DNA of 25,265 nucleotides. Source: Deltaproteobacteria bacterium (GTDB lineage: Bacteria; Desulfobacterota; DSM-4660; Desulfatiglandales; B25-G16). The notes under the pieces are model-generated. The model made no database searches. It was not told where the DNA came from and saw only the letters and a program-made list of their open reading frames with translations. The stretch is from the NCBI GenBank assembly GCA_020348625.1, contig CP070752.1, forward strand, positions 2,275,588-2,300,852. The letters are read 5' to 3'. Shown in pieces: positions 5,188 to 25,265 of the stretch (its first letter is position 1; every line of letters begins with the position of its first letter). The position numbers and the translations under genes were made by a program.

Positions 5188-5191
5188 TTCC

Positions 5192-6061: not shown

Positions 6062-6198
6062 AGTGAAAGCTTCCTGATTTTTGGAAACTACGATTGCAGG
6101 CTGTCCAAAGGGTGTCCATAAAAAGGCGATGTTTACACCCTTTGAGACAGCCTGCCTGTTAATTCTAATAGTGAACTATTAGAGTCAAGTCTATGTCA

Positions 6199-7446: not shown

Positions 7447-7608
7447 TTTATCCCTCCTTTCGAGAACGAGTGGAATGATTCTAAGTCTCGTTATCATAAA
7501 ACCTCTCATTACCTCTCAACTGCCTGGAAAACATATCTTTATTTATCTCCTCCTTTCTTATTCTCTGTGCGACTATTGATCTCACCTCCCTCCTGCTTCA
7601 GGTTCGGG

Positions 7609-7655
7609 GGACATCGCAAAAAAGGCACCCACCATTATCATATTTGCCGATGTCC
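7609..7655 (-). promoter_or_regulatory. Intercistronic stem-loop between the two binding-protein genes
   Basis: GGACATCG at 7609-7616 pairs exactly with CGATGTCC at 7648-7655, and the adjoining CAAA (7617-7620) can pair with TTTG (7643-7646) across one bulged C, giving a stem of about 12 bp with a loop near 22 nt. It lies between the stop of binding protein 2 (7741) and the start of binding protein 1 (7446). On the minus strand a run of six T falls inside the structure after TGCC, which could pair with an upstream GGCA, so an alternative short terminator-like fold exists. A role in differential expression or mRNA stability is inferred. Confidence 0.4.
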
Positions 7656-7740
7656 TCGTATCTATGCTTAATCAGTCAAGACCTATTCCTCGGCCAGCAG
7701 TGGTCTTTTCAGTCTATAGTGCAGTCGCCAAACTCAATGT

Positions 7741-8961
7741 CTATTTCTTCTTTGGCCAATCAGGCTTTACGATCGGTGGGGCCGTACGCTTCGGCCCAGG
7801 GTCTATTACTTCAAAAACCCCCTTTTGCCACTGGCCCCATTCACCGGGATGATTCACGAAAATTCGCCTCTCATCGTACCAGAACGGGCCCAGAGCTGTA
7901 TCGAACTTCTCTTTAGCCATTATATCCCGTATCTTTTTCTGGTTCAGGGTACCAGCCTTCTCGATAGACTGCTGAAAGTGCTGCAGGGCAGAGTACCAGT
8001 ATAGCGCGCCCCAGTAATTATTTACAGGTTTTCCCATGACCTCTTTGAAATGCTCGGCGAATGCTTTGGCCCCAGGAGAAGTCTTCTCGTTCCAGGCACC
8101 ACCACCGATTACTCCCTCTGCAAGCGGACCAAACGCCTCTGGATAAAACGTAAAGGCGGGGCCCACCGTGAATCCGAAGACCTTGAAATTGATGCCGAGC
8201 TCAATCGCCTGGCCGGTAGCAAGCATAACCTCACCAGGATAGCTAAAACCAATAAAGGCATCCGCGTTAAGCGACTTCGCTCGCTTCAGCAGTGGAGATA
8301 AATCCTTAACGCCCATCGGGTAGCTCTCATTTATGACAACCTCAAACCCCCGATCGGTCAATGCTGGAACCGCTGCCGCACTATTTTCAGCACCATGGAG
8401 GTCATCATGGCAGATTGTTGCCACCTTCTTCACGCCGAGTTCCTCAAGGATGTCAACCAGGGCAGGCACCTGAGTTTCGGCAAAATTCAAGGTCTGAAAG
8501 TAGTAGGGTAGGTCAGCGGCGAAATCCTTGAGCTTCATCGCGCCAGCGCCATTGCTGATGAGTATATACCCGTGCTTGTTGGCAACAGGGGCGGCGGCTA
8601 AGGTAAATGCAGTGCCCCAGGGGCAGAAGACGAAATCGACCTTCTCTTCTAAGATCAATTTTTCCAGCAGCCTCGTCATCGTGCTGATATCGGATTTATC
8701 ATCATATACTTTTAGCTCTACCGGCAATTTCTTGCCGTACTCCTTTACATAGATCCCGCCTGCGGCATTGACATCCTTAACCCATACATGATAGACTGGA
8801 GCACATGCGAATGTGTAATCGCCACCAAGTGGGCCTGAGAGAGAGGCTGCCTGACCAATGACGATTTTATCCTTCGCGTGAGCAGCCAAGGGAAACGCCA
8901 TAAGCAAGGCAAACAGCACTAGGCACACTGCAAGTTTTAAGGATTTTTCTTTACTATTCAT
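7741..8961 (-). CDS. Liv-type ABC transporter periplasmic substrate-binding protein 2
   Basis: A 406-residue periplasmic binding protein, paralogous to the one encoded just downstream. The frame is open to 9147; the ATG at 8961 is chosen because it has GGGAGGAG upstream and opens a Sec signal peptide ending FPLAAHA before the mature start KDKIVIGQAASLSGPLGG. Shared blocks with the paralog include IYVKEYGKKLPVELKVYDDK, MTRLLEKLILEEKVDFVF and the C-terminal FEVIDPGPKRTAPPI. The two differ clearly in the ligand-facing middle part, so they may bind different compounds and share one permease. It is the first gene of the transport operon, with a predicted promoter at 9273-9301 and a leader of about 300 nt. 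Confidence 0.9.
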   Translation of the reverse strand: MNSKEKSLKLAVCLVLFALLMAFPLAAHAKDKIVIGQAASLSGPLGGDYTFACAPVYHVWVKDVNAAGGIYVKEYGKKLPVELKVYDDKSDISTMTRLLEKLILEEKVDFVFCPWGTAFTLAAAPVANKHGYILISNGAGAMKLKDFAADLPYYFQTLNFAETQVPALVDILEELGVKKVATICHDDLHGAENSAAAVPALTDRGFEVVINESYPMGVKDLSPLLKRAKSLNADAFIGFSYPGEVMLATGQAIELGINFKVFGFTVGPAFTFYPEAFGPLAEGVIGGGAWNEKTSPGAKAFAEHFKEVMGKPVNNYWGALYWYSALQHFQQSIEKAGTLNQKKIRDIMAKEKFDTALGPFWYDERRIFVNHPGEWGQWQKGVFEVIDPGPKRTAPPIVKPDWPKKK

Positions 8962-9331
8962 GGTTCTCCTCCCTTTTAGAGATTCAAAAAAAGCCAAACC
9001 CTCAAAATACGCCGTGGCTATCACCAGCGCCCTTTGTGGATGAAATGTGAGCATCACCTCCCTTTTTGGCTCAAAGCTATTGATCCTCGGGACTGCTAAA
9101 CGATGAACTTTGCGGATACGAGAACTGATTCCCCCACCCAACCGCAATCAAGGGAATCATGAGGAGCTCATCTCCTTCCTGAAGCATCTTGTCCATACTG
9201 TTGAGACATTCTATGGGCCGCCCATTGTGCGGAAGAAGACGGTCGCTTGTCGGGCGAAATAAGTTAGGGGCAACTATACCTTAATCCCTCCCCATTATCA
9301 AGAAATCAATTCGGAAAAAGGAACAGACGCG
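8962..9331 (-). other. 370-bp leader/intergenic region upstream of binding protein 2
   Basis: No convincing gene. It holds the predicted promoter at 9273-9301 and then a 5' leader of about 300 nt. Within the leader the minus strand has GGGAGGTGATG at about 9054-9064, a strong Shine-Dalgarno-like sequence far upstream of the real start, and a 27-codon frame starting at 9160 preceded by AAGGAG. On the plus strand a stop-free stretch of about 50 codons ends with the TAA near 9261; it has no start signal and I do not recognise it. Confidence 0.5.
9273..9301 (-). promoter_or_regulatory. Predicted sigma-70-type promoter for the binding-protein/liv operon
   Basis: On the minus strand TTGATA (9296-9301) and TATAGT (9273-9278) are separated by exactly 17 bp; each hexamer matches the consensus at five of six positions. 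It lies between the end of the MoaD-like gene (9332) and binding protein 2 (8961). Transcription would start near 9266, giving a 5' leader of about 300 nt. It would let the transporter be expressed independently of the upstream ADH-AOR genes. Confidence 0.55.
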
Positions 9332-9583: not shown

Positions 9584-11305
9584 TCAGAAATCAAAGACAC
9601 TGTCAAGCTCATCGTCTCCGATAACAAAGACCGTATTATGCGGAGGCAGGGGCTCTTCATAGAAGAACTTGGGAAGTCGATCGTCCTGACTCGTAAACCC
9701 CGCCTTTCTGTTGAATTCCCGCTCTGCCTTTAACACCCGAACACCCAGGGCGCCGGGGAAATCGTCCGGCCCAAGTTCCTTGCCTAACTTGGCACTGAGC
9801 ACCTTCCGAAATGCTTCGCCGGGTTCGGGATCAAACGCGGCAACAGTCGCCATGAAGCATTGGCCCGTGCAGTCAAAAGCCGCCATGGCGATTTGTAGGT
9901 TTCTGGAGATCTCAACCACCCCTTCTGCTTGCATTGGATCGAGCTTTCCTTGCAGAACCAACCCAATCAGGTTACCGGCAGTGTGATCGGCCCCCATTGG
10001 TGAGGTAGCAAAGGTAACGCCATTGCCCCGCATGGCCCTTGGATCATAACCGGCAATGGCCTGACCCTTGACCACCGGAACCCGGGAATGGTTGAAGTGC
10101 TTGCCCACCGCAACAGGGCCGTTTCCGAGTATCCTACCGAACTCCGTACCTGTGCCTATCTCTTTCACCATCTCGATGGCTGCCGCGCCATCTCCAAACT
10201 CCTTATACCCGGCGTCCATGGCAACGCCAACGGCCACCCCTGTGCTCATGGTGTCAACGCCAATGTCATCGCACAGAAAGTCCAACCGAGCAATGGTATC
10301 GAGATCAGCGATTGCGGCCATGCCGCCCATGGCCCAAATGGTTTCATATTCCAGGGAACTGGTGACGTAGTTTCCCTGTTTATCCACAAACTCATTGGAG
10401 CAGTGGACGATGCACTGGGCGCAGCCCACGTGGGTCGTCTTTCCGCCCCGTTGCTTGATAAGCTCGGCCATGGCCTCCCCGCTGATCTGCTCCCACCCGT
10501 CCATTACGCCCTTTCGAGCATTGTAGCAGGGAAAGGCGCCCATTGAATTGAGGGGAGCTACGAGTGCAGCCGTGCCAAGGGTGGGCATCAATTGGCCGGG
10601 TTCGGGATGCTCTTTTACGGCTTTGGTGAAGATCTTGGTCGCCTCCTTAAAGGCCTTGGGGTCCGCTATGGCATCGGCGCTCTTGCCTCCCTGATCCACC
10701 ACCAGCGCCTTAAGCCCCTTGGCACCCATAACCGCACCCAAACCGCCTCGGGCCGCGGCGTGGCAGGGATGACCATCCACATCGGAAGACTGTATCGATG
10801 CTGCGGTCAGCCGGTACTCACCAGCTGGCCCGATGCAGAGTATTGAGGTCTTCTTTCCGTAGATCTCAAGCATCTTTTCCACGAATTGGTAGGTGCCCAT
10901 TCCCTTGTAGTCTTGGGCCGGGATCAGGCTCGCATTTCCTGCCTTGTCGATCACGAGGATGCTGAGGTCTCCTTCCGGCGCATGCCCCTCGATTATAATC
11001 GCAGTAATTCCCAAACGGCCCAAAGCCGCGGAAACGGTGCCCCCTGAATTGCTCTCTTTGATTGTCCCCGTCAAGGGGCTTTTTGCCCCTATGGATATCC
11101 GGCTGGTATTGGGCAGAGGGGTACCGCTTAAAAGGCCCGGGGCAAAAATGAGTTTGTTGTCCGGTCCCAGGGGATCACATGTGGGCGGCACCTCTTGGTT
11201 GATCATGATTGATGTAAGGCCCCTGCCACCAAGCCCCTTGTATTTTTCTGGCACATCTTCAACACCAATGGTTTTGTTATTCATATTAACCTTGATAAAC
11301 TTCAT
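9584..11305 (-). CDS. aor: Tungsten-dependent aldehyde:ferredoxin oxidoreductase (AOR family)
   Basis: A 573-residue cytoplasmic enzyme of the AOR family, which oxidises aldehydes to carboxylic acids (or the reverse) with ferredoxin using a bis-tungstopterin and one [4Fe-4S] cluster. The N-terminal domain shows KYKGLGGRGLTS; cluster ligands are GCAQCIVHC in the middle plus a distal Cys in FDCTGQC. Tungstopterin and active-site blocks are SLEYETIWAMGG, CDDIGVDTMSTG and YDPRAMRGNG followed by SPMGADH, whose His matches the AOR catalytic His. The frame is open to 11338, but the ATG at 11305 with AAAGGAGG upstream gives the standard start MKFIKVNMNNKT. It lies downstream of an alcohol dehydrogenase and upstream of a MoaD-like gene, suggesting aldehyde oxidation. 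Aldehyde specificity is not readable. Confidence 0.92.
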   Translation of the reverse strand: MKFIKVNMNNKTIGVEDVPEKYKGLGGRGLTSIMINQEVPPTCDPLGPDNKLIFAPGLLSGTPLPNTSRISIGAKSPLTGTIKESNSGGTVSAALGRLGITAIIIEGHAPEGDLSILVIDKAGNASLIPAQDYKGMGTYQFVEKMLEIYGKKTSILCIGPAGEYRLTAASIQSSDVDGHPCHAAARGGLGAVMGAKGLKALVVDQGGKSADAIADPKAFKEATKIFTKAVKEHPEPGQLMPTLGTAALVAPLNSMGAFPCYNARKGVMDGWEQISGEAMAELIKQRGGKTTHVGCAQCIVHCSNEFVDKQGNYVTSSLEYETIWAMGGMAAIADLDTIARLDFLCDDIGVDTMSTGVAVGVAMDAGYKEFGDGAAAIEMVKEIGTGTEFGRILGNGPVAVGKHFNHSRVPVVKGQAIAGYDPRAMRGNGVTFATSPMGADHTAGNLIGLVLQGKLDPMQAEGVVEISRNLQIAMAAFDCTGQCFMATVAAFDPEPGEAFRKVLSAKLGKELGPDDFPGALGVRVLKAEREFNRKAGFTSQDDRLPKFFYEEPLPPHNTVFVIGDDELDSVFDF

Positions 11306-11471
11306 AATCGGCCTCCTTTCATTGGTATTATCTCCCAATCCTTATATAAAGTGTTACGCTCTGGTTCCTCAGACACCGCACCATTGCTTCTTTCATATGC
11401 CCAATCGACTGAGCAGTAGCCCACCTGCATGAGGCTAAAAAACTCATATAGGAAGACACCTGTATTCCCTG

Positions 11472-12569
11472 TTATAGCCGCAAAACCGGCTTCATCACGC
11501 GTCCCTTTTCCATGTCTTCCACCGCCTTATTGATGTCGTCGAATGGATAGAACGTGATCAAGCGGTCAAAGGGGAACCGCCCCTGGCTGTACAATTCAAT
11601 GAGTTTGGGGATAAACAGATCCGCGATGGCGTCGCCTCCGAGGATCCCCATAACCGTCCGGCCATTCATGATCAGGTCCATATCCAGGCTGACCTCCGTG
11701 CCCGGTGGCACAACCCCGAGGAGTCCGCAAACCCCGAGGCGGGGCAGGACATCTACGGCCTGTCGAAATACTGCAGGATTGCCGATACACTCCAGGCTGA
11801 ATTCCGGGCCCCCGCCCGTAATCTCCAGGATGGCCTCAACAGGGTTAACATCACCGGCGTTGACGGTATGGGTGGCGCCAAATTCCTTGGCCATGTTCAA
11901 ACGGTCGGAATTGATATCTACGCCGATAATGGTGGTACAACCGCACACGACCGCAGCGAGAACAGCGCTCATCCCCACATTGCCGACACCGAATACGGCG
12001 ATGGAAGATCCGGGCTTAGCCCGAAACGAATTCATGACCGCGCCGGCACCGGTCATAACGCCGCATCCCATAGGGCCCAGGATCTCGAGGGGAACGTCAT
12101 CCCGCACCTTGACCACGTTCCGTTCGTTGGCCAGCGCGAAGTTGGCAAAAGAGGACTGGCAAAAAAAGGACCCATGGATGACTTGATCGCCCTTTCGCAA
12201 GGTGGTTGTACCGTCCGGGCGGGCGCCGTTAAAATTGTGCAGGAAGAAATTCAGACAATAGAGTTCCTTGCCTGATTTGCACGCAGTACACGCCCCGCAG
12301 TAGTCCCAGGCCAATACCACATGATCGCCCGGTTTTACCTTGGTCACCCGGGAGCCCACCTTTTCAACAACGCCGGCCCCTTCGTGTCCGAAGACACTGG
12401 GCGGCGGCGGAATCGGCAAATGCATATCCCGGGCGGCCAGATCCGTGTGACAGATGCCAGCGCCGACTATGCGAACCAGCACTTCATCGTCGTTCGGATC
12501 ACTGAGTTCCAGTTGTTCAATGTTGAACTTTCCCGATTGCTCATAAACGACTGCTGCCTTAGTTTCCAT
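11472..12569 (-). CDS. Zinc-dependent aryl/benzyl-alcohol dehydrogenase-like enzyme (MDR family)
   Basis: A 365-residue NAD-dependent medium-chain dehydrogenase. Catalytic zinc ligands are Cys40 (GICHTD), His62-Glu63 (FGHEGAG) and Cys169 (GPMGCGVMTGAG); the structural zinc site has Cys91, 94, 97 and 105. The Rossmann motif is GVGNVG (194-199) and Asp218 at the end of the second strand predicts NAD over NADP. Along its length it resembles XylB-type benzyl alcohol dehydrogenases, including RDMHLPIP, the SSFANFAL block, GCTTIIGVDIN and the C-terminal FPFDRLITFYPFDDINKA. It would interconvert an alcohol and its aldehyde in the cytoplasm. The start has GGAGGAAAC upstream. AOR lies 166 bp downstream, so the pair could carry an alcohol to an acid. 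Aromatic preference is inferred from similarity. Confidence 0.88.
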   Translation of the reverse strand: METKAAVVYEQSGKFNIEQLELSDPNDDEVLVRIVGAGICHTDLAARDMHLPIPPPPSVFGHEGAGVVEKVGSRVTKVKPGDHVVLAWDYCGACTACKSGKELYCLNFFLHNFNGARPDGTTTLRKGDQVIHGSFFCQSSFANFALANERNVVKVRDDVPLEILGPMGCGVMTGAGAVMNSFRAKPGSSIAVFGVGNVGMSAVLAAVVCGCTTIIGVDINSDRLNMAKEFGATHTVNAGDVNPVEAILEITGGGPEFSLECIGNPAVFRQAVDVLPRLGVCGLLGVVPPGTEVSLDMDLIMNGRTVMGILGGDAIADLFIPKLIELYSQGRFPFDRLITFYPFDDINKAVEDMEKGRVMKPVLRL

Positions 12570-14379: not shown

Positions 14380-14802
14380 ATGAAGCGTTCATCTTCTATG
14401 AATGTCGTAATAAAGGGAACACTGGTTGAAGGCATGAAGGAATCAGGCCTTTTCATGAGTATCCCTTGGGTCAGGGACCAATTCATGGAGAAGCTGGGTA
14501 TTGATCCCTACCCAGCGACTCTCAACCTGGAGGTAAAGAATCCTCAAGACCTCGACAAACTCAAGGAGGTGAAAAACCGGGCAGGCATCGAGATACTCCC
14601 TATGGATCAAGGATTCTGTTCGGCAAAATGCTTTCATGTGTTGATATGCGGAAAGGTAAGGGGAGCAATCGTCCTTCCCCTTGTTGAGGGTTATCCAGAA
14701 TCCAAATTAGAGATCATCGCCTCAGAAAGGCTCGTGGATCTCTTGTCGCTCGAGGTTGGCGACATAGTGCCGATAGAAATCGATTTAAGAAGTAGGCCCT
14801 AG
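14380..14802 (+). CDS. DUF120 domain protein, CTP-dependent riboflavin kinase-like
   Basis: A 140-residue single-domain protein resembling the archaeal CTP-dependent riboflavin kinase (RibK, PF01982). Shared features are the opening strand IKGTLVEG, the LGIDPYPATLNLEV segment, whose Thr and Asn match the metal-binding pair of the archaeal enzyme, AIVLPLVEGYPESKLEIIAS, and the closing LLSLEVGDIVPIEI. The glycine-rich nucleotide loop (GLGEGRYF-like in the archaeal protein) is altered here to GMKESGLFM, so CTP use or kinase activity may be lost or changed. An ATG at 14380 or at 14398 could serve as start. The domain is mostly archaeal, so its presence in this otherwise bacterial context suggests old lateral transfer. 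It ends the HAD operon. Confidence 0.75.
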   Translation: MKRSSSMNVVIKGTLVEGMKESGLFMSIPWVRDQFMEKLGIDPYPATLNLEVKNPQDLDKLKEVKNRAGIEILPMDQGFCSAKCFHVLICGKVRGAIVLPLVEGYPESKLEIIASERLVDLLSLEVGDIVPIEIDLRSRP

Positions 14803-14959: not shown

Positions 14960-16123
14960 CTATGAGCTGTCAATCACCCGGCGGACGTGATCTGCCACAG
15001 CCAGACATGAAGTCAAGGCGGGACTCCCCATGCCGAGCAAATGGATGCAGGAAGGATATTTCTCCTCTCTTTGTATAAGCCAGTCCAGATGCCCTGATAG
15101 GTAGCCTAGCACACCGGTCTGATAGGGTTCTAGATCGTTTGCCCTAAGCCCCGGGAAATAGGATGAGACTGTATCAAAGTACTCGGACATGGGTCGGAAT
15201 TCTCCTGCGAAATCCTCCTTGCTTTTCGCGGGAAAGGAGATCGGGCCAACCGCCATAATTGGTGCTGGTTTCCAATCCCCTTCAGGCCCTGGTTCAATGG
15301 TGGGGGTGAGGTGTGTGCCGACGGTCCAGTAGCTGCCGCTGGGCAGACTCACCTTGAAGGGGGCGGGATATATGTTCATATGGCACAACAGATTGGACCG
15401 TTTGGTCCGATAGAATCGGGCGAACTCGCAGCGCATAGGGTCCACCAGATAGGGGGACGCCGGATTAAGCATCCGGGCTACCTGATCAGCGTAAAGACCG
15501 GCACTATTGATCACCTCCTTGGTAAGGAAGGTGTCCTCGCTGCTGTCCCTGTTTCGGACCGTCAATTCGAGCCCTTCGGAGCGGGGCCTAATGTCCACCA
15601 GTTCGGTTTCGGTCAGAAAACGGACGCCATGATTGGATGCCAAAGTGAAAAGTCTGTAAACCAGCCTTGTCGGATCGACCACACCGGCACTGGGCAGATA
15701 GATCGCGGCAAGGACCTGGACATTGGGTTCTTTAGCGCGCACTTCTTCGCGGTTCAGCATCCGGGCTTCTACACCGTTAGCGCGGGCCCTGGCCAGATAA
15801 AGTTCTAGATTAGGCAAATCCCTTTCGGAGGTGGCCACAACCAGTTTACCGCAATGAAGGTGGGGGACTTCATGTGCCCGGCAAAAAGCATAGAGCATAC
15901 GGTTACCTAAGGCACAGAGCTTTGCTTTAAGAGGACGAGTCTCCTGATCGTAATACAGGCCTGAATGGATTACACCCGGGTTTCGGGAAGACTGGTTCTC
16001 GCCTCGGGTGACACCAGGGTTTTTCTCAATAACAAAAACCTCTCGCCCATTCTTGGACAGTTCATGGGCGACCGCTGTTCCCACAACCCCGGCCCCTATG
16101 ATCGTGGTTTCGACAACTTCCAT
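14960..16123 (-). CDS. lhgO: L-2-hydroxyglutarate oxidase-like FAD-dependent oxidoreductase
   Basis: A 387-residue flavoprotein of the DAO/GlpD-like superfamily closest to LhgO, which oxidises L-2-hydroxyglutarate to 2-oxoglutarate and passes electrons to the membrane quinone pool. The dinucleotide motif is IIGAGVVGTAVAHEL (residues 8-22) with FVIEKN at the second strand. The LhgO-type block RNPGVIHSGLYYDQ follows at about 47-60, then HCGKLVVATSERDLPNLE, and the C-terminal MGSPALTSCLAVADHV contacts FAD. Length and domain order are normal for the family. The start at 16123 has only a weak purine-rich GAAGAGAC upstream. It has its own predicted promoter at 16319-16347, 450 bp after the Mo enzyme gene. 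The substrate could be another L-2-hydroxy acid; the gene symbol is by similarity. Confidence 0.85.
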   Translation of the reverse strand: MEVVETTIIGAGVVGTAVAHELSKNGREVFVIEKNPGVTRGENQSSRNPGVIHSGLYYDQETRPLKAKLCALGNRMLYAFCRAHEVPHLHCGKLVVATSERDLPNLELYLARARANGVEARMLNREEVRAKEPNVQVLAAIYLPSAGVVDPTRLVYRLFTLASNHGVRFLTETELVDIRPRSEGLELTVRNRDSSEDTFLTKEVINSAGLYADQVARMLNPASPYLVDPMRCEFARFYRTKRSNLLCHMNIYPAPFKVSLPSGSYWTVGTHLTPTIEPGPEGDWKPAPIMAVGPISFPAKSKEDFAGEFRPMSEYFDTVSSYFPGLRANDLEPYQTGVLGYLSGHLDWLIQREEKYPSCIHLLGMGSPALTSCLAVADHVRRVIDSS

Positions 16124-16574: not shown

Positions 16575-19235
16575 TCAGGTCTGTTTGGCCACCTTGTAAA
16601 CCTTTACCCTCACCGCAGTCTCAATGGATAAGGTCACGGGGCACTTGTGTTCCATATCATTGATCAAGAGGTTATTAAACATCACACCCTTGTTCTTGGC
16701 TATTGGTCGCCCCTTGGCCCAGCCTCCGCCACCGGCGACTGAAGCAACCGCCTGGGGGTGGATGCCGGTCATGAGCTTGGCCCTGCCGGTCATTCGCCTG
16801 CCCCTTAGGTTCTCCACACAGATCATATCCCCGTCTCTAATGCCCTTCTTCTTGGCTGCCTCGGCGTGTAAGCAGATATTGTAGGTAAAGGGGTTATTCC
16901 TGCTCATCTCATCGATCATCGGGTTCTGATAGGTAGCAGTCGCTGCGTGCAGGATATCCCGATAGGAGAAGGCGACAAATTCATAATCGGGATGGGCCTG
17001 TCCTTCCTCGTAGATAATGGAAGGGAAATAAGTGAGCAGAGGCGTGTAGTGGTTCCAGTCCACCTTGATACCCAGTTTTTCACCGATCGGCATTGCCTTC
17101 TCTTTGGTGTTCAACAGAAACTCGAAATAGATGGGACCTCTTCCGGAGCAGAAGGTCCGCCAGTAGGCCTCTTCCGGTCGTTTCTTCCAGGTCACGAACC
17201 CTTTTTCCCGTAACCATTGCAAACCGCATTTTTCGCCGAACATGTGTTTCAGGGTCCTGTCTATGAATTCCTCGTTCGACAGCCTTTCATCCGGTCCTAT
17301 GATGGGGAACTCTTTGTCCTGTTGTTCCATTTCAGCAGCCCCCCACTTGGTAAGCTTTCCGGAGAAATAGGTATCCAGAAAGGTGTTGTAATGAGCTCGT
17401 CTCTCCGGCCCTAATCTGTCTGCCAGATCGAACATGATGTCTAATACGTCCCTTTCTTCATACCGATTCTTCACCACAGGTTGCCGCATATGAAAGGACC
17501 AGTCGTCCATGCCGGTCGGCCAATTGAAAAAGTATCCGATAGAGCCGCTTATGTCTAATTGTTCCAGCGGATGCTTTTCTGGCAGAACGATGTCGAGATA
17601 GGCCTCCGTGGTTTCGTTGTGCTCGGTGAATACCCCCCAGGAAAAGGGGACTTTTGAAAGGTATGTCCCCGTAGATTCGATATCAGCAGTGCTTTTAAAG
17701 AGGTTGCCTCCCATATAGGCAATAATCTGGCAGTCATAGGGACGGCCCGCTCTTTCCCATATCTCTTCAAAATCCTCGGAATACGGGTGCCCTGATGTGT
17801 GGGAATGAACAAAGAAATCTTGCAGTGTCAATCTCTCGGGCCATTTTGGTTCTTCTGGAGGCCACGGATCGTGCGTGACCCACATGCCGGGGGTGAGCAT
17901 CCCGTCAACCCCTGCATATGGTTCGTATCTGGGATATCCCGTATCGGGGTGGCCAAACCCCCGGGCCGGCCAGCTGATCGTGCCGCCAACAGCTTCCACA
18001 TTTCCCACGAGCTGGTTCAAAACGCATATGGCAAAATACTGGTGAAAGCAGTTCGAGTGTCCTTGTCCGCCTCTAAACATGCAGGTGGCAACGGGCCTGT
18101 AGGGCAACCGGACCCCTTCGATCTCAATGGTGGCGCCGATTCGCGCCTCTTCCAGGAACTCCCTGGCAATCCGGTCGATCTTTGACGCCGGAACGGTACT
18201 TACCTTTTCGGCCCATGCCGGTTCATACTGTTTCAGATGTTCTTTCAGAAGCTGAAAGGAAGGCCGGCATTGTATGCCATTCACTTCAAAATCCCCCAGC
18301 AGTGCACATTCCGATGACAATGTGGGATCGTCCCATGTCTTCGCCTTGGAGTCGGATTCATCCCATAAGAGGGGCTGACCGGTCTCCCTGTCTCTGACGA
18401 ACTTCAGATCAGGTCGCACCAGGTAAGGGCCGTTGGTATATTTCTTCAGGAACTCTTCATCATATTTGCCCACCGTATTAACAATGATGTTGCACATGGC
18501 CAGGATAACGGCCAGATCCGTTCCGGGGAGAATGGGGATCCATTCCGTGGCCTTACCCCCGGCAAAATTGCATATAGGGTCGAACACGATATTTCTCATA
18601 CCCCTTGCCCTCGCCTCGGCGGCAAGCCTCATGTTATGGGCTGGGCTGTGTCCGGATCCCGTGCCCTTGTTCGAACCGAATTGAATCGCGTAATTGCAGT
18701 ATCTGTAGTCCGGTAACACCGACCATGAGCAATGTATCAAGCCGGCCCCAAAATGGGCACCATTACCGCAATGCAAACCCACGCCTCCGGGGGCAAAACT
18801 GCGACAGCCAAGGGTCAACAGGAGACCGGACAAAATGGTCGAGAATTTCTTATTAGTACCCGGCGAGGGTGTGCCGGCAATAATAAGGGCCCGGGGATCT
18901 TTCTCTAAAACTTTATTGTGCTTCTCCGCAATGGTGTTCATCGCCTCTTCCCACGAAATCCGCTCCCATTTGGGATCTTCGCCAAAGCCCTTTTTAGGGT
19001 TTGTCCTCTTCATCGGGTATCTTATCCGGTTGGGGTCATAAAGACTTATGATGCTTGAGGCACCTTTGCCGCAAAGTCCCCCTCTGCTGCCCATAAAGCT
19101 ATCCGGCTCACCTTCAACCCTTACCACGACGCCATCAACCACATTAACGGCCATGCCGCAGGAGCCATAGCACTGGGCGCAGACCGTATGGTACCAACGA
19201 TCGTCTAGGGTATCTTTCTCAGTATCCTCGGCCAT
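16575..19235 (-). CDS. Molybdopterin oxidoreductase, catalytic subunit of a CISM-type complex (DMSO reductase family)
   Basis: An 886-residue molybdo/tungsto-bis-pterin enzyme. The N-terminal [4Fe-4S] site is Cys19-x2-Cys22-x3-Cys26-x28-Cys55 with the electron-relay Lys57 (LCGKG). Cys156 in GGVGLHCGNGAH is the best candidate metal ligand, as in Psr/Phs/Arr-type enzymes. Later blocks include PILPGTDLAVILAMCNIIV, MFRGGQGHSNCFHQYFAI, VLPEKHPLEQLDISGS and the C-terminal pterin-binding barrel (MTGRAKLMTGIHPQAVASVA). No twin-arginine signal precedes the first Cys; the protein begins MAEDTEKDTLDDRWYHT, so it should stay in the cytoplasm. The ATG at 19235 has AAGGAGAAG upstream. It is third after the FeS and NrfD subunits. 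The substrate cannot be assigned; it is not obviously formate dehydrogenase (no Sec/Cys-His formate motif) or transhydroxylase. Confidence 0.88.
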   Translation of the reverse strand: MAEDTEKDTLDDRWYHTVCAQCYGSCGMAVNVVDGVVVRVEGEPDSFMGSRGGLCGKGASSIISLYDPNRIRYPMKRTNPKKGFGEDPKWERISWEEAMNTIAEKHNKVLEKDPRALIIAGTPSPGTNKKFSTILSGLLLTLGCRSFAPGGVGLHCGNGAHFGAGLIHCSWSVLPDYRYCNYAIQFGSNKGTGSGHSPAHNMRLAAEARARGMRNIVFDPICNFAGGKATEWIPILPGTDLAVILAMCNIIVNTVGKYDEEFLKKYTNGPYLVRPDLKFVRDRETGQPLLWDESDSKAKTWDDPTLSSECALLGDFEVNGIQCRPSFQLLKEHLKQYEPAWAEKVSTVPASKIDRIAREFLEEARIGATIEIEGVRLPYRPVATCMFRGGQGHSNCFHQYFAICVLNQLVGNVEAVGGTISWPARGFGHPDTGYPRYEPYAGVDGMLTPGMWVTHDPWPPEEPKWPERLTLQDFFVHSHTSGHPYSEDFEEIWERAGRPYDCQIIAYMGGNLFKSTADIESTGTYLSKVPFSWGVFTEHNETTEAYLDIVLPEKHPLEQLDISGSIGYFFNWPTGMDDWSFHMRQPVVKNRYEERDVLDIMFDLADRLGPERRAHYNTFLDTYFSGKLTKWGAAEMEQQDKEFPIIGPDERLSNEEFIDRTLKHMFGEKCGLQWLREKGFVTWKKRPEEAYWRTFCSGRGPIYFEFLLNTKEKAMPIGEKLGIKVDWNHYTPLLTYFPSIIYEEGQAHPDYEFVAFSYRDILHAATATYQNPMIDEMSRNNPFTYNICLHAEAAKKKGIRDGDMICVENLRGRRMTGRAKLMTGIHPQAVASVAGGGGWAKGRPIAKNKGVMFNNLLINDMEHKCPVTLSIETAVRVKVYKVAKQT

Positions 19236-19300
19236 AATTCTTCTCCTTCGGAATACACTTGTGCCTCCGGGGCAGTTCCCTGCTTCTGGGATACCCCTCT

Positions 19301-20203
19301 TTACCTGAAATCGTTAGGCCTGGCCGGAAATAGACCAGGATAATAACCACTTTTTATCAAACTGTATCGCAGCAGCAAATCCCCAAGCAGTTGCAGGATC
19401 GCGGCAATCAGCAACATTACTGTTCCGATTTCATTAACCCCAACAGCAAAACCGTATACAGTCACGACCAGGGGGATTATCATGCCGCCCGCAATTACCC
19501 AGGGCCAGAATATCCATTTCAGTGATCCTTTTGCCATCATAGACAACGAGAGCTTCTCCTTGCCTTCTTCAAACCCGAGGCTGACCAGACTCAGGGCAAA
19601 AAGACAGACGTTAATCAAAAAAGTAACGAGCAGCCACTGCCTCATGTTGATCATGGAGGTATTCTGTCCAAGCAAAAGGTTGATGACCAGCACGATGGCC
19701 AGCCCGATAAAGAAACTCCGTGCCAACATCTGGATAGGAAGAAAACTCGAGTTCCATGTCAGTATTGGTTTGACATCAGCGATTTCATAACCGCCATAGA
19801 GGATGGTTGCTACCGCCATAATGTTGGCTACAATCAACACCCATGCTACAGGCGTTGAAAAATAAGACAATGCCAGGTGAATAAAACCGAAGAGCTGGAA
19901 CAAAGAGATGATCAAAAGGCCCCGCGATATCCAAGCACTGCTGGGCCTTAGAATGGCTTTATAGATTCGAAAGGGGCGGCCCAGAAAAAGTAAATGGCAG
20001 CCTCCCCCCAGGGCTCCCGAGATCAACCATCCCGCTGTCTGGCCCCACAGGCTGTGTAAAACGGAGGCCGCCAGAAATATGCCGGCGCCAAATTCCACGA
20101 GAAACAGTCCGGAAAAGAGCAATGCCCCTTTCCCTTGAATCCAGGCTGTTTGTAGCGTGGGATATACCATGAATTCGTATGGTTCCATCTTTTCGCTTAA
20201 CAT
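19301..20203 (-). CDS. NrfD/PsrC-type membrane subunit of the Mo complex
   Basis: A 300-residue integral membrane protein with eight predicted helices, the number of the NrfD/PsrC family, beginning at about residues 28-50 and ending around 260-285. It anchors the complex and exchanges electrons with menaquinone. Family-like features are the N-terminal WIQGKGALLFSGLFLVEFGAG segment, LFLGRPFRIYKAILRPSSAWISRG between helices two and three, and the polar YGGYEIA after helix four. It has no heme-binding histidine pattern. The ATG at 20203 has AAGGGG upstream. It starts 23 bp after the FeS gene and ends 65 bp before the catalytic subunit gene. Confidence 0.88.
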   Translation of the reverse strand: MLSEKMEPYEFMVYPTLQTAWIQGKGALLFSGLFLVEFGAGIFLAASVLHSLWGQTAGWLISGALGGGCHLLFLGRPFRIYKAILRPSSAWISRGLLIISLFQLFGFIHLALSYFSTPVAWVLIVANIMAVATILYGGYEIADVKPILTWNSSFLPIQMLARSFFIGLAIVLVINLLLGQNTSMINMRQWLLVTFLINVCLFALSLVSLGFEEGKEKLSLSMMAKGSLKWIFWPWVIAGGMIIPLVVTVYGFAVGVNEIGTVMLLIAAILQLLGDLLLRYSLIKSGYYPGLFPARPNDFR

Positions 20204-20225
20204 GGAGAATCCCCTTACTGATTAC

Positions 20226-20873
20226 CTATTTGGTAATATAATAAACACACGGATCCGTGCCTGCCTCAGGTTTTAGTTGATATCCCTTTCCGATCCGGAT
20301 TGCAGTGGAAACGTCACTTTCAAGATCATCGATGTCTCCGAATATCCTGGCATTAGTCGGGCAGGCATTCACGCAAGCAGGGGTCACGTGGCGATCAACT
20401 CCTGGTACCCCTCCATTATTCAGTGCCTTATCCACCCTCTCCTTGCAGAAGTTGCATTTTGCTACCGTGCCCAACTGCAGGGGATACATCTTCTCTCTCA
20501 TCTCCTCATACGGCGTGAGACCCTGCCCAGGAAAATATTCCCGTGGACTTTCATTGAACACCCGAACCTGATATGGACAGGCCATCATGCAGGACCGGCA
20601 ACCAATGCATTTGTCGGGGTCTACGCACACGATGCCGTCCTCGCGCTGCTCTGTAGCCCCGGTGGGGCACACATCTACACAGAATGGCTCTTTACAGTGG
20701 TTGCACAAGGTAGGGTAGATCTGCTTGTTAATCCCTTCTGCCTCAAATATTACCACCCGATTCCAGACAACATCGGGTGGTAGAAAATGCTCTGTCTTGC
20801 AGGCAATAACACAAGCATAGCACCCCACACACCTCGTCAGATTGATCGCCATTCCCCATCTCATCTTACTCAT
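20226..20873 (-). CDS. Four-cluster ferredoxin-type electron transfer subunit of the Mo complex
   Basis: A 215-residue iron-sulfur protein of the PsrB/DmsB/NrfC type. Sixteen cysteines form four [4Fe-4S] sites: C15, 18, 21 and 25; C57, 60, 65 and 69; C89, 92, 95 and 99; C140, 143, 167 and 171, in the usual crossed arrangement. It would relay electrons between the molybdopterin subunit and the NrfD-like membrane subunit. The N-terminus MSKMRWGMAINLTRCVGC has no signal peptide, consistent with a cytoplasmic complex. The ATG at 20873 has GAAGGGA close upstream. It opens the three-gene cluster, 132 bp after dctM on the same strand. Confidence 0.92.
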   Translation of the reverse strand: MSKMRWGMAINLTRCVGCYACVIACKTEHFLPPDVVWNRVVIFEAEGINKQIYPTLCNHCKEPFCVDVCPTGATEQREDGIVCVDPDKCIGCRSCMMACPYQVRVFNESPREYFPGQGLTPYEEMREKMYPLQLGTVAKCNFCKERVDKALNNGGVPGVDRHVTPACVNACPTNARIFGDIDDLESDVSTAIRIGKGYQLKPEAGTDPCVYYITK

Positions 20874-20921
20874 TCCCTTCTGTCTTGGTTATGGGCTCAT
20901 ACTCTTTGCATTACCCTGCTG

Positions 20922-20948
20922 TGAGTTCCACAAGAAAGGGACCTCACT
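20922..20948 (-). promoter_or_regulatory. Small stem-loop between dctM and the ferredoxin-subunit gene
   Basis: On the minus strand GTGAG-G-TCC pairs with GGA-A-CTCAC around a nine-base loop, a stem of eight pairs with one mismatch. It lies in the 132-bp gap before the ferredoxin subunit. No T-run follows. It may modulate read-through from the TRAP genes or RNA stability; the role is inferred. Confidence 0.3.
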
Positions 20949-21005
20949 GTTCATTATCCATTCATTGTTTAGTTGATGAGAGTTCCGTTTTTTCGCGCAT
21001 AATTG

Positions 21006-22304
21006 CTACATCAAACTGGGCAGGAATAAGGAAAGTTGGGGGACAGCTATGAGCAGAGCTATGTGGCACACATCAGCCATGAGGAAAGGGACTATCCCCC
21101 TGAATATGGTATACATGGGAACGTCCGGCGCCACCCCTTTGATGACAAAGACATTTAGACCAACGGGGGGAGTTATCAGTGCCATCTCACACATTCTAAC
21201 GATAATAATTCCAAACCAAATCGGGTCAAACCCAAGCTTTTCGGCTACTGGATAGAAAATGGGCGTGATAAGGAGAATCATCGCGGGCGCGTCAATAACA
21301 GTACCGAGAAATAGAAGGAAGACCAGTATGAAGATAAGCATAATGTATCTGTTAATCTCAAGTCCGACTATAGTATCTGCTATCGTAAAGGGAACCCTGC
21401 TTATGGCAAGGAAATAGCCCAGGATAAGGGCACCTAATACGATAATAAGTATCATTGCCGTATTCCTGAGTGTTTCAAAAAGACTCTCCTGGATGGCCTT
21501 TCTGTTAAGCTTTCCTCTCAGCAATGCGGAAAAAAAGGCTCCGAAGGCGCCCACCCCAGCCGCCTCCGTGGGAGTGAAGATACCGAAGTAGATCCCTCCG
21601 AGAACGAGGATAAATAGAAGCAAAATGACCCATGTATTCTTGAGCGATACTATTCTCTCTCTCCAGCTCGATATAGGCCCAGGCGGACCTAACCGGGGAT
21701 TGAGCTTGCATATGATGAAGATGGTGATCATATAAAAGACAGCTTCGAGCACGCCCGGGATAAAGCCCGCAAGAAAAAGCCTGCCTATAGATTGCTCGGC
21801 TATAATACCATAAACAATAAGGCCCACACTGGGCGGTATGAGGATACCAATAGTACCGCCGGCTGCCACTGAGCCCGTAGCCAAGGCAGGATCATAACCG
21901 TATCTCTTCATCTCCGGCAAGGCCACCACTCCCATGGTAGCCGCCGTAGCGGTACTGGAACCGCTGACAGCGGCAAAGCCGGCACAGGCACCCACATTCG
22001 CCAACGCCAGGCCGCCACGGAAATGCCCTAACCATCTATAGACCGTATTATAGAGATCTTTGCTGAGTCCGGCATGAAAACAGAATGCCCCCATAAGGAT
22101 AAAAAGGGGGACGACGCTGAAGTCGTATGAGGCAAAAGTTCTGTAAGGAACTGTTGTCAGTACGCCGAGGGCCGAGTCCAAACCCCTGAGAAAGGCGAAA
22201 CCGGCAAAACCCACCAACCCCATGGCAATACCTATGGGCATCCCTGAAAACAGGAATATGAAGAGAATGCCTATGCCAATAAATCCGGTGGTAAGGGGTG
22301 TCAT
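21006..22304 (-). CDS. dctM: TRAP transporter large permease DctM
   Basis: A 432-residue membrane protein of the DctM family, the ion-coupled translocation subunit of TRAP transporters. Hydrophobic helices run through the whole length. The family signature is seen as GVVALPEMKRYGYDPALATG followed by GTIGILIPPSVGLIVYG, repeated in the second half as ILLITPIFYPVAEKLGFDP and ITPPVGLNVFVIKG, reflecting the internal duplication. The ATG at 22304 overlaps the dctQ stop as ATGA, so the two are translationally coupled. It works with DctP and DctQ to import organic acids driven by a sodium gradient. Confidence 0.94.
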   Translation of the reverse strand: MTPLTTGFIGIGILFIFLFSGMPIGIAMGLVGFAGFAFLRGLDSALGVLTTVPYRTFASYDFSVVPLFILMGAFCFHAGLSKDLYNTVYRWLGHFRGGLALANVGACAGFAAVSGSSTATAATMGVVALPEMKRYGYDPALATGSVAAGGTIGILIPPSVGLIVYGIIAEQSIGRLFLAGFIPGVLEAVFYMITIFIICKLNPRLGPPGPISSWRERIVSLKNTWVILLLFILVLGGIYFGIFTPTEAAGVGAFGAFFSALLRGKLNRKAIQESLFETLRNTAMILIIVLGALILGYFLAISRVPFTIADTIVGLEINRYIMLIFILVFLLFLGTVIDAPAMILLITPIFYPVAEKLGFDPIWFGIIIVRMCEMALITPPVGLNVFVIKGVAPDVPMYTIFRGIVPFLMADVCHIALLIAVPQLSLFLPSLM

Positions 22305-22807
22305 CTGGTCACAAGTTGAGAAAGATATTCCAGAAAATCCTTTAGAAGCACCAATGTGAAAACCAGGCTGCCTAGAGCGAGCGCAGCGACAAAAGGGAAA
22401 GTAGGTATGAGTAATACGGCGGATACCAGGTTGCTTTTAAATATAAGCTTTATATAAAGTATGCTTTGCCACGTTACTAACGAAAAAAAGAGAAAGCTAA
22501 GAAAATAGGTAATACAATTGAAAACCGCCTGAGCTCTGGGCGAAAACCGGGAGGTCAGCACCTCTACGCTAATGAGACCTTTTACCAAAGCGCAATAGGA
22601 AAGCCCGAAACCGACCACAACTGCCATCATATATGAGGTAAGCTCCCAGGTGCCGCTTATGGGCCGGTTAAAGATATAGCGCAGCAGGACATCCGCCGCC
22701 GTGATGAACATCATTAGGGCGAGGACGCCTGCTGCCACATAAGTGATGACTCGGACTATAGGGTTTGCCGCCCTTGTTAGAGCACGAATAGTTTTGGTCA
22801 GTAGCAT
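22301..22807 (-). CDS. dctQ: TRAP transporter small permease DctQ
   Basis: A 168-residue membrane protein with four predicted helices, typical for DctQ. Recognisable segments are MFITAADVLLRYIFNRPISGTWE in the first half, with the family's R-x-x-F-x-x-P-I-x-G-x-x-E pattern, and the VVGFGLSYCALVKGLISVEV helix with its cytoplasmic loop. It forms the membrane complex with DctM and starts nine bases after the dctP stop; its Shine-Dalgarno is weak, so coupling to dctP is likely. Confidence 0.92.
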   Translation of the reverse strand: MLLTKTIRALTRAANPIVRVITYVAAGVLALMMFITAADVLLRYIFNRPISGTWELTSYMMAVVVGFGLSYCALVKGLISVEVLTSRFSPRAQAVFNCITYFLSFLFFSLVTWQSILYIKLIFKSNLVSAVLLIPTFPFVAALALGSLVFTLVLLKDFLEYLSQLVTR

Positions 22808-22816
22808 TCTTACATA

Positions 22817-23881
22817 CTATGGTTCTGTTTTTACCAGTCGAAGAAGCTCATCAAGCACGGCTTGCCCTGGCAGTCCTTTTGCAGTGACCCTTTTCACCCA
22901 GGCATCCCATAATGGTTTGCCGCCCACTTCCTGCCACCTGGCAAGTTCCTCTGGAGTGAGAGTGTAATCTATCAGTCTATGGCCCGTCTTTGCCGCGTAT
23001 TCGTCCATCTCCTTCAAACCGGCATCGTCAAGTGCGTCGGAATAGTGTTTGCCCAGCCATCTGCACGCATCATAACCGCATTCACTATCTATAGCCTTCT
23101 GGATGTCGGGCGACAGACTGTTCCACTTGTCTTTATTCATGATAATGGCGAAAGGTGCCGTGGCAATAATCACATGAGTCATGTATTTTCCAACCTCATG
23201 GAAGTTGAAGATCTCACATGCACCAATGGGCGTTAACGTGCCGTCGAGAACACCTTTTTGCATGGCAAGGTAGGTTTCAGTAAAAGGCACCAAGGTCGGA
23301 ACAGCCCCTAACGCCTTCATTGCGTCCGTTTGAGGTCCGCCTAGGGCCCTTATCTTCAACCCTTTCATGTCCTCAAGGGTTTTGACCTGCTTTTTGGTGG
23401 TAAGCAGTCTATACAGACCAGCAGTGTAGTTGACAAGTACGTGCACCTCCTCGTACTCCTTCTGAAACTCCGGAAACTTAGTATATAGTTTCCTTAAGAT
23501 GCCGCTGGCTTGCTGAGCGTTCTTAAAGGGGACAAAGGGGAGTTGCATGATTTCAGTGAGAGGTGCCATTCCCGGCCAATAGCCCATGGCGCACCAGGCC
23601 ATATCTGCGACGCCGGTTTTTGCGGCATTCCACGCATCCATCCCCTTGACCAGGGTACCACCGAAATAACGCTCTATTTTAATCCGATTGCCAGTAGCCG
23701 CTTCAAGCCTGTCGAGCCATACGGCATTAGCATGGATGGTACCATAGGAAGTTGGGGGGTTGTGGTCAGTATAGACGAGTTTTATTGGTTCGGCTTGTGC
23801 CAGCGCGGGAAGGCCAACGAAGATCAAAAGGCACACTGAAACTACGATTGTTGGGATTAAGGAAAATCTCTTCTCTTTCAT
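22817..23881 (-). CDS. dctP: TRAP transporter periplasmic solute-binding protein DctP
   Basis: A 354-residue solute receptor of the DctP family. A Sec signal peptide ends at PALAQA before EPIKLVYTDH. The receptor signature GLKIRALGGPQTDAMKALGAV carries the conserved Arg that binds the carboxylate of the ligand, and it is followed by VPFTETYLAMQKGVLDGTLTP. Ligands are therefore probably organic acids. The start has AAAGGAGG upstream. It is the first gene of the TRAP operon, and its leader holds further strong Shine-Dalgarno-like sequence at 23946-23956. The nature of the acid cannot be read from the sequence. Confidence 0.94.
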   Translation of the reverse strand: MKEKRFSLIPTIVVSVCLLIFVGLPALAQAEPIKLVYTDHNPPTSYGTIHANAVWLDRLEAATGNRIKIERYFGGTLVKGMDAWNAAKTGVADMAWCAMGYWPGMAPLTEIMQLPFVPFKNAQQASGILRKLYTKFPEFQKEYEEVHVLVNYTAGLYRLLTTKKQVKTLEDMKGLKIRALGGPQTDAMKALGAVPTLVPFTETYLAMQKGVLDGTLTPIGACEIFNFHEVGKYMTHVIIATAPFAIIMNKDKWNSLSPDIQKAIDSECGYDACRWLGKHYSDALDDAGLKEMDEYAAKTGHRLIDYTLTPEELARWQEVGGKPLWDAWVKRVTAKGLPGQAVLDELLRLVKTEP

Positions 23882-24439: not shown

Positions 24440-24512
24440 TTTCATCCAACAAGGAAAATGCTTATCGCTTGAAAACCGTGAGTTTCTTGCGACTCTCTGA
24501 TGGAGAATGAGC

Positions 24513-25265
24513 ATGAAAGAACAATTAGTTCAGGCTGAGGTCTTATGTATCGGAGGTGGCATAGCAGGCCTCATGGCTGCTATACGAGCAGGGGAACTCG
24601 GGGCAAAGGTCATTGTGGCTGAGAAAGGCAATACGATACACAGCGGCCGTGGCCGTGCCGGAAATGATCATTTCTGGTGTTACATCCCTGAGGTACACGG
24701 CTCGGATATGGATGTCTTTTTGAAAGAATGTTTGAAAGGACCGAAGCTAAAATTGATGCAAACAGGGACCAACATGAAAGTCCTGCGTACTTTCTTGGCA
24801 AGGTCCTTTGATATTGTAAAGCTGTGGGACACCTGGGGAATTCCCATGAAGTACCAGGGACGATGGGAGTTTGCAGGCCATTCCTTTCCGGGGGATGTGC
24901 TCACTCACCTGAAATACGGGGGACACAAGCAAAAACGTGTTTTGACCGAGAAAGCCCTCGAACAAGGGGCAGAGATCCTGAACAGAGTGATGGTATTTGA
25001 TCTGCTGCGCGACACTGAGGGCATTGTGGGTGCTGTAGGCATTGATACGAGATCGGAGCTGGTTATTGTGTTTCAGGCAAAGGCTGTTATTTTGGGGACC
25101 GGTTGTCTCGACAGATTATATCCCGCCCCTGTTCCTGCCTGGATGGCCAGTATACCGGGAAATCTAACGCTCACCGGTGACGGACGGGCGATGACATACA
25201 GGGCTGGAGGTGTCATCGTTGGCCCCGAGATCCCCAAACGACATGTCGGTCCACGATATTTTTCG
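24513..25265 (+). CDS. AprA/FrdA-like FAD-dependent oxidoreductase, N-terminal part (cut by window edge)
   Basis: The first 251 residues of a flavoprotein of the succinate dehydrogenase/fumarate reductase superfamily; the frame is open to the window edge. The FAD motif is GGGIAGLMAAIRAGELGA (residues 14-31) followed by VIVAEKGN and SGRGRAGNDHFWCYI. The order LWDTWGIPM, then EGIVGAVGI, then FQAKAVILGTGCLDRLY, then TGDGRAMTYRAGG resembles the APS reductase alpha subunit (AprA), more than classical FrdA. The catalytic region lies beyond the window, so the reaction is unknown: it could be an APS reductase paralog, a fumarate reductase-like enoate reductase or a dehydrogenase. GGAG eleven bases before the ATG serves as ribosome-binding site. 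It is divergent from the TRAP operon and may act on the imported acid. Confidence 0.78.
   Translation, partial: MKEQLVQAEVLCIGGGIAGLMAAIRAGELGAKVIVAEKGNTIHSGRGRAGNDHFWCYIPEVHGSDMDVFLKECLKGPKLKLMQTGTNMKVLRTFLARSFDIVKLWDTWGIPMKYQGRWEFAGHSFPGDVLTHLKYGGHKQKRVLTEKALEQGAEILNRVMVFDLLRDTEGIVGAVGIDTRSELVIVFQAKAVILGTGCLDRLYPAPVPAWMASIPGNLTLTGDGRAMTYRAGGVIVGPEIPKRHVGPRYFS

Follow-up and report, generated by a model that had tools for sequence, protein, structure and literature searches.

What does a molybdenum enzyme complex that appears to face the cytoplasm do when its genes follow those of a tripartite ATP-independent periplasmic (TRAP) transporter? We addressed this question for six genes in a stretch of 25,265 nucleotides from contig CP070752.1 of a Deltaproteobacteria bacterium (the whole stretch is hereafter called the window). 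We prefer, with a probability of about 0.68, to read the complex as an arylacetyl-CoA (or closely similar acyl-CoA):quinone oxidoreductase working like PadBCD, the phenylacetyl-CoA:acceptor oxidoreductase reportedly described by Rhee and Fuchs in 1999 (Thauera, Aromatoleum). Judging by sequence, it is probably related to the enzyme with which phenylacetate breakdown without oxygen begins, and has itself received little study.

A preliminary description of this DNA had placed the six open reading frames at 16575-23881 on the minus strand; these positions held, and each gene was verified with a Pfam domain. From upstream to downstream, the genes encode the TRAP solute-binding protein DctP (22817..23881; PF03480), the N terminus of which looks Sec-signal-like by eye, the small membrane subunit DctQ (22301..22807; PF04290), the large permease subunit DctM (21006..22304; PF06808; 361 bits with TIGR00786, above the cut-off of 268), a PadC-like 4Fe-4S electron transfer subunit of 215 aa with Fer4 domains (FeS subunit; 20226..20873), a PadD-like NrfD-type membrane anchor of 300 aa with 8 predicted helices (19301..20203; PF03916) and a PadB-like molybdopterin catalytic subunit of 886 aa (Mo subunit; 16575..19235), the last recognised from Pfam, trees and alignment columns. 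The DctP, DctQ and DctM domains form one cluster, as in a TRAP transporter, and the Mo, FeS and NrfD-type subunits are encoded together, as in PadBCD. The spacings are 132 bp (DctM-FeS), 22 bp (FeS-NrfD) and 65 bp (NrfD-Mo), and a Shine-Dalgarno-like GAAGGAG stands 5' of the ATG of the Mo gene.

The kinship of the Mo subunit carries much of the argument. True PadB was anchored by synteny and not by names: PadI was sought in 23 genomes and exceeded its curated cut-off in 5 of them. In the Sulfuritalea locus (L092) the order is PadB candidate, FeS/PadC, PadD, POR gamma, POR alpha, PadH-like, PadI, ligase, DctP, DctQ and DctM, with PadI at 847 bits (cut-off 700) and the phenylacetate-CoA ligase PaaK at 695 (cut-off 646). 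Among the matches listed, 28 of 120 homologues of this PadB are named phenylacetyl-CoA:acceptor oxidoreductase, and one of the 120 listed homologues of the window Mo subunit is named padB2. A FastTree analysis of 166 Mo subunits recovered the window clade (95 rows) as sister to a 37-row true-PadB clade (joint support 0.889). The two also formed one clade under a mixture model in IQ-TREE (SH-like approximate likelihood ratio test 99), with the inner order partly open and all the PhsA, TtrA, FdnG, DmsA, ArxA-like and ArrA-like rows outside; the TtrA, FdnG and DmsA references are long branches in that tree. Firm reference points are supplied by the annotated genes for PhsA, TtrA, FdnG and DmsA, SoeA not being among the rows; the rows labelled PhsA (L197-L202) and ArrA (L205, L206) are top model matches, yet lie below the NCBIfam cut-offs (0/59 genomes over). 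The preliminary description had proposed such a phylogeny and could name no substrate class for the catalytic subunit. The latter statement no longer holds: the Mo subunit lies beside, not within, the operon-anchored PadB clade, and some relatives are found within arylacetate alpha-oxidation clusters. None of the 22 NCBIfam models matching the Mo subunit reached its cut-off (top PhsA, 184 bits vs 694). Membership of PhsA, TtrA, ArrA, DmsA or FdnG was rejected on the curated cut-offs, on the references falling outside the clade and on the missing twin-arginine translocation (Tat) signal. The best reading of these comparisons is that the Mo subunit would function like PadB but is not PadB.

The alignment columns agree with this placement in part. 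The window Mo subunit has a 4Fe-4S motif (C19-C22-C26-C55), and C156, in a C-x4-H motif, is the candidate Mo ligand according to the alignment. C-x4-H at this column was found in 93/95 rows of the window clade, in 32/32 true PadB, in 2/5 other PadB-clade rows and in 2/34 others. Pyrogallol transhydroxylase and resorcinol hydroxylase, in which the Mo ligand is Ser according to passages of PMC10100899, were rejected as candidates, the window residue at the Ser-ligand column being Cys156; the transhydroxylase was absent among 34 solved matches in a single-sequence search and reached 69 bits by profile search.

The Mo and FeS subunits carry no Tat or Sec signal, as in PadBCD and as the preliminary description had it. 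The frame above the Mo ATG is open for 26 codons up to a stop and holds zero ATG, GTG or TTG codons, while that above the FeS ATG is open for 5 codons only; a missed upstream start with a Tat signal is ruled out by these two frames. We scanned for an RRxFL-like motif within the first 70 residues and found it in 0/95 window-clade Mo subunits, 0/32 true PadB, 1/37 of the wider PadB clade and 16/34 other rows. It was also missing from the 120 Mo homologues among the matches listed (0/120) and from the true-PadB proteins P0121-P0241 (0/121). The earlier view that relatives typically carry Tat signals holds for those 16 rows; the other 18 of the 34 outside rows, six PhsA-like rows included, have no such motif, so its absence is by itself no clade marker.

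The predicted topology of the anchor points the same way. The window NrfD carries 16 lysine plus arginine residues on the terminal side of its eight predicted helices and 1 on the opposite side, and 12/12 aligned anchors (window plus 11 relatives, with helix borders transferred through the alignment) have 12-20 against 0-3. An unaligned count, in which 75 window-clade tree loci gave 35 anchor picks (some probably not NrfD), oriented 31/35 like the window NrfD, and 21/21 of the picks with exactly eight helices. Picks adjoining true-PadB-clade genes were oriented like the window in 5/6 cases, at least two of the six resembling other proteins. The opposite orientation was found in 4/4 anchors from Tat-type loci (an anchor was obtained in 4/15) and in the named controls TtrC (6 vs 12) and DmsC (3 vs 10). 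The ten-helix ArxC-like control (14 vs 6) was not opposite to the window NrfD, and the Sporomusa anchor (8 vs 9) pointed clearly neither way. The anchor of the closest relative with a fetched neighbourhood (L213, 82% identity) had seven helices at the default threshold and 4 vs 18, the opposite orientation, against 20 vs 1 in the aligned count. In the loop between helices 2 and 3, the window anchor aligns with the TtrC loop and is more Arg/Lys-rich. The anchor profile matched PadD of L092 with hhalign probabilities of 95.5 (local) and 97.1 (global), compared with 87.2/42.7 for DmsC, 60.3/42.0 for TtrC and 2.8/0.1 for the ArxC-like control; the structure search matched no solved structure related to the window NrfD. 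The topology model with both ends of the anchor in the cytoplasm is well supported, and the complex probably faces inward because there is no room for an export signal and because of this predicted topology, which bears out the cytoplasmic orientation first proposed. On the same grounds, passages of the NrfD review (PMC8076601) expect an inverted SoeC.

We then examined the neighbourhoods of relatives, gathered from titled contigs and further genomes. Window-clade relatives were present on contigs titled Chloroflexi, Deltaproteobacteria, Rhodospirillales, Betaproteobacteria, Acidimicrobiaceae and others, with a patchy occurrence at E 1e-100 (11/297 genomes in one phylum sample and 15/197 in one class sample). 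The class of G260 held no close relatives at E 1e-250 (0/148), and plasmid searches for close relatives gave a Sporomusa match as the best, with 28% identity over 98%. The Mo and NrfD genes probably also sit together in the closest relatives, since their matches fall on equal-sized contigs (e.g. 9631, 57910 and 25077 bases). Neighbour genes were counted around 79 loci, i.e. Mo genes in genomes with DctM and POR counts, after removal of the window, of near-duplicate rows and of loci that either lacked a genome DctM count or had no more than 1.5 kb of flank. A phenylglyoxylate-dehydrogenase-like POR alpha gene lay within 8 kb of the Mo gene in 17/79 loci, against 1.4 expected.

DctM-type permeases, fused permeases included, lay within 8 kb in 12/79 loci against 2.9-3.6 expected, and POR and DctM were both near the Mo gene in 3/79. 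A stricter count (DctM of at least 150 bits) gave 7/79, with p 0.02, rising to 0.06 under the upper background; these values assume random placement and independent loci, and related genomes are not independent. Fused permeases were added in a recount as the PF06808 background includes them, a choice made after the first result. The DctM counts of several genomes are at least 33 (G743, G754 and G746 among them), and for six genomes first-look candidates were used as the upper background. L234 is in neither TRAP count, its DctM being cut by a contig end. With TRAP genes so plentiful in these genomes, single TRAP co-occurrences weigh little, and contiguous same-strand sets weigh more.

These counts bear on the possibility that transporter and complex are mere neighbours with separate substrates, which we consider unlikely. 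Besides the abundance of TRAP genes and the modest strict count, it is favoured by the relative of 82% identity, which has no TRAP genes directly at the complex, and by minus-strand promoter-like and terminator-like matches within the end of dctM. Against it stand the count of 12 once fused permeases are included as in the background, the 132-bp DctM-FeS gap, inside which no promoter-like or terminator-like match was found on the minus strand, and contiguous same-strand sets of TRAP genes and complex in six other loci (L214, L165, L166, L167, L171 and L234) as well as in the true pad operon L092. L214, for instance, comprises DctP, DctQ, DctM, NrfD, Mo and FeS genes. The neighbourhood survey suggested in the preliminary description thus shows that the TRAP association recurs in other genomes and is not unique to this one, though its statistical strength is moderate.

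The best three solved relatives of the window DctP are 4n6d, 4pgn/4pgp and 4nap (144-147 bits); the structures 4pgn, 4pgp and 4nap presumably contain indole pyruvate, indole acetate and D-tryptophan, which the papers searched did not confirm. If correct, these ligands would suit an importer of aryl acids. In Desulfococcus multivorans, an organism without PadB, passages of PMC5109826 describe a TRAP system formed specifically on phenylacetate and phenylpyruvate. TRAP-linked aromatic uptake is already known for TarPQM (in the part of PMC3610893 available), which the window resembles, by gene content only, in having a DctPQM-type set beside catabolic genes.

Several individual loci allow a pathway to be read. 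Two genomes (L167/L240 and L166/L241) have one-strand runs composed of a TAXI receptor, a fused TRAP permease, PadB-, PadC- and PadD-like genes, POR gamma, a small ferredoxin, POR alpha, a PadI-like gene and a three-subunit molybdenum hydroxylase. The large hydroxylase subunit exceeds the 4-hydroxybenzoyl-CoA reductase alpha cut-off in both (1020 and 1029 vs 994.55 bits); in L167, the middle (127 vs 405, beta model) and small (183 vs 258, gamma model) subunits are below theirs, and an AMP-binding ligase lies upstream of the run. By sequence, the L166 and L167 sets match the gene complement expected for a 4-hydroxyphenylacetate route, which would go from import to the CoA ester, alpha-oxidation, oxidative decarboxylation to 4-hydroxybenzoyl-CoA and dehydroxylation. 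L234 follows the plan of the pad operon, with Mo, FeS, PadE-, PadG-, PadH- and PadI-like genes, DctP, a probable DctQ (by eye) and DctM; contig ends truncate its Mo gene as well as its DctM. The run that holds the complex in L227 includes an indolepyruvate:ferredoxin oxidoreductase alpha gene (789 bits, cut-off 651), and enzymes of this type are described in passages of PMC9765128 and PMC5109826 as yielding arylacetyl-CoA from arylpyruvates. As a separate observation, PadE-, G-, H- and I-like genes form a run in L218 (4903-13893); it follows a xanthine-dehydrogenase-type enzyme and an amidohydrolase, and immediately after it come genes for a deep-branching Mo subunit and an NrfD protein.

In the proposed mechanism, the TRAP transporter would import an aryl-acetic or similar carboxylate, which a CoA ligase encoded elsewhere in the genome would activate. 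The cytoplasm-facing Mo subunit would oxidise the alpha carbon of the CoA ester, and electrons would pass from its 4Fe-4S cluster to the FeS subunit and on to quinone at an NrfD that is inverted relative to the Dms or Ttr anchors. The resulting 2-oxoacid would be decarboxylated to the aroyl-CoA by a phenylglyoxylate-dehydrogenase-type enzyme. The gene content, the lack of room for an export signal, the predicted inward topology, the place beside PadB and the recurrent POR and TRAP neighbours are what the analysis shows; that the substrate is a CoA ester, which way the reaction runs, that it is coupled to quinone and which acid is used in this genome are inferred. The earlier proposal of import followed by conversion inside the cell is plausible in its oxidative version.

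PadBCD is the closest known system. It shares with the window the Mo/FeS/NrfD-type set, the absence of a Tat motif, C-x4-H at the Mo ligand and a related anchor, and some window-clade relatives adjoin PadE-I-like and TRAP genes. Several points nevertheless weigh against our reading. Identity between the window Mo subunit and true PadB is no higher than 27-29%, and the two lie in separate clades. The window subunit has four Cys in the Fe-S motif where PadB has Cys-Cys-Asp-Cys; the third Cys (Cys26 in the window) is present in 89/95 rows of the window clade and in 0/32 true PadB, where Asp replaces it in 31/32 rows, L092 (3499-6261) among them, with one gap. The first cluster of true PadB may be unusual because of this Asp. 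The window order is TRAP-FeS-NrfD-Mo, and no CoA ligase, PadE-I/PadJ or phenylglyoxylate dehydrogenase was recognised in the window, not every open reading frame of which was scanned. The substrate in this genome is for this reason unproven, although the phenylglyoxylate dehydrogenase and arylacetate-CoA ligase of pad operons do occur beside some relatives. In L234, the PadI-like (418 vs 700) and PadH-like (317 vs 475) proteins are below cut-off. Also, 62/79 loci have no POR neighbour, many of their flanks being short. In L213, an IclR regulator is followed by FeS-NrfD-Mo, a TctC receptor gene lies 2.2 kb downstream, and TRAP genes are 8 kb off, past TctC and an iron-type alcohol dehydrogenase. 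Finally, the window-clade complex of L171 points, by its neighbours, to a non-aromatic acyl-CoA: on one strand we found an AMP-binding ligase, an enoyl-CoA-hydratase-like frame (by eye), an acyl-CoA dehydrogenase, TRAP and Mo-FeS-NrfD genes, and also a B12-binding protein and a methylmalonyl-CoA-mutase-type protein.

L171 leads to a second alternative, with the same chemistry but a non-aromatic acyl-CoA (fatty, branched or dicarboxylic) as the substrate, which would be oxidised or hydroxylated at its alpha carbon, the product passing to other enzymes. Apart from L171 and the lack of a recognised POR in the window, it is favoured by genome G746 (L216, L225-L230), where 11 hits of the window Mo subunit (E 1e-100) were read as nine genes; the substrates are probably many, since one genome holds nine such genes, and some copies adjoin POR, aldehyde:ferredoxin oxidoreductase (AOR)-like, UbiD-like (by eye) or TRAP genes. 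We regard this alternative as doubtful for the window, as phenylglyoxylate-dehydrogenase-like POR genes recur far over background and two clusters end in 4-hydroxybenzoyl-CoA reductase. The substrates within the window clade are nonetheless probably diverse, in view of the neighbour genes in L171 and in L055; the latter encodes a glycyl-radical enzyme (2-2230; PF02901, PF01228) and an apparent activating enzyme about 9 kb upstream of its complex, with TRAP genes near by. A broader proposal, which we put forward tentatively and do not hold to be the probable case, is that the window clade would be a wide family of inward-facing, quinone-linked enzymes for oxygen-free hydroxylation or oxidation of the alpha carbon of diverse imported, CoA-activated acids, with paralogues often paired with importers, and that the one in the window would act on an acid other than phenylacetate, without phenylglyoxylate dehydrogenase.

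In a third alternative, very improbable to us, the complex would use menaquinol to reduce the imported acid as an electron acceptor inside the cell. In its favour, the solved structures nearest to the Mo subunit by profile bear the names ArrA and thiosulfate reductase, and enzymes of this superfamily operate in both directions. On the other side, the Mo subunit stands beside an enzyme named phenylacetyl-CoA oxidoreductase that acts in catabolism, and the neighbours in relatives (POR, IorA) are catabolic. A SoeABC-type sulfite dehydrogenase or other sulfur-cycle complex with a sulfonate-importing TRAP transporter is the least credible alternative. In its favour, SoeABC is proposed to be inward-facing with an inverted anchor (passages of PMC8076601) and has a Cys Mo ligand (passages of PMC10100899), the JGI name SoeC appears on 2/111 NrfD homologues, and the top models are PhsA (Mo) and DsrO (FeS; 173 vs cut-off 200), with an AprA/FrdA-like flavoprotein starting at 24507. 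Against it, these models all stay below cut-off, the Mo subunit reaches no curated sulfite family, and relatives adjoin CoA, POR and 4-hydroxybenzoyl-CoA reductase (Hcr) genes; the trees, having no SoeA row, do not bear on this alternative.

Returning to the arylacetyl-CoA reading, part of it seems new. PsrABC/PhsABC, TtrABC, ArrABC/ArxABC and DmsABC have the subunit make-up of complex iron-sulfur molybdoenzymes in common with the window, which differs in lying far under their NCBIfam cut-offs, without Tat and outside the reference rows. An inward-facing Mo/FeS/NrfD complex was proposed before for SoeABC (passages of PMC8076601). The large clade next to PadB, together with the importers paired with it, seems undescribed in the openly licensed literature, subscription literature being outside the search. 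In that literature we found nothing joining TRAP transporter, phenylacetate, anaerobic and molybdopterin. The main text of the superfamily phylogeny (PMC10100899) has no 'phenylacet', the available text of the NrfD review (PMC8076601) has neither 'phenylacetyl' nor 'PadBCD', and a Dehalococcoidia genome paper (PMC4959651) notes, in the part available, phenylacetyl-CoA oxidoreductase and aromatic-type TRAP genes and draws no gene-cluster link. If the reading is correct, oxygen-free alpha-oxidation of acyl-CoA would be far more widespread than the phenylacetyl-CoA case. Ideas on how such anchors are oriented could be tested on the predicted inverted NrfD, and the L166 and L167 clusters are open to direct test as 4-hydroxyphenylacetate pathways. 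Such alpha-oxidation is known for phenylacetyl-CoA.

We also identified other genes in the window. An FAD oxidoreductase of the L-2-hydroxyglutarate oxidase type lies 451 bp downstream of the Mo gene (14960..16123, minus strand; PF01266; 200 bits with PRK11728, below the cut-off of 299). Among the compared loci this LhgO-like gene was found only in the window, and it is probably outside the system because it does not occur beside relatives. An aldehyde:ferredoxin oxidoreductase-like protein and an adjoining zinc-type alcohol dehydrogenase are encoded at 9584-12569 (minus strand), recognised by eye and from similarity to the AOR protein of L097; AOR-like genes are also near several window-clade complexes (no background count was made) and would suit aromatic aldehyde oxidation. 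The AprA/FrdA-like flavoprotein (24507-25265, plus strand) is divergent from the TRAP genes and cut by the window end. A stand-alone CTP-dependent riboflavin kinase domain, mainly an archaeal type, is encoded at 14380-14802 (plus strand; PF01982), although the genome looks bacterial. Finally, branched-chain-amino-acid-type ABC transporter genes were recognised by eye at 2819-9147 (minus strand), a region with two distinct LivK-like receptors (6199-7509 and 7741-9147).

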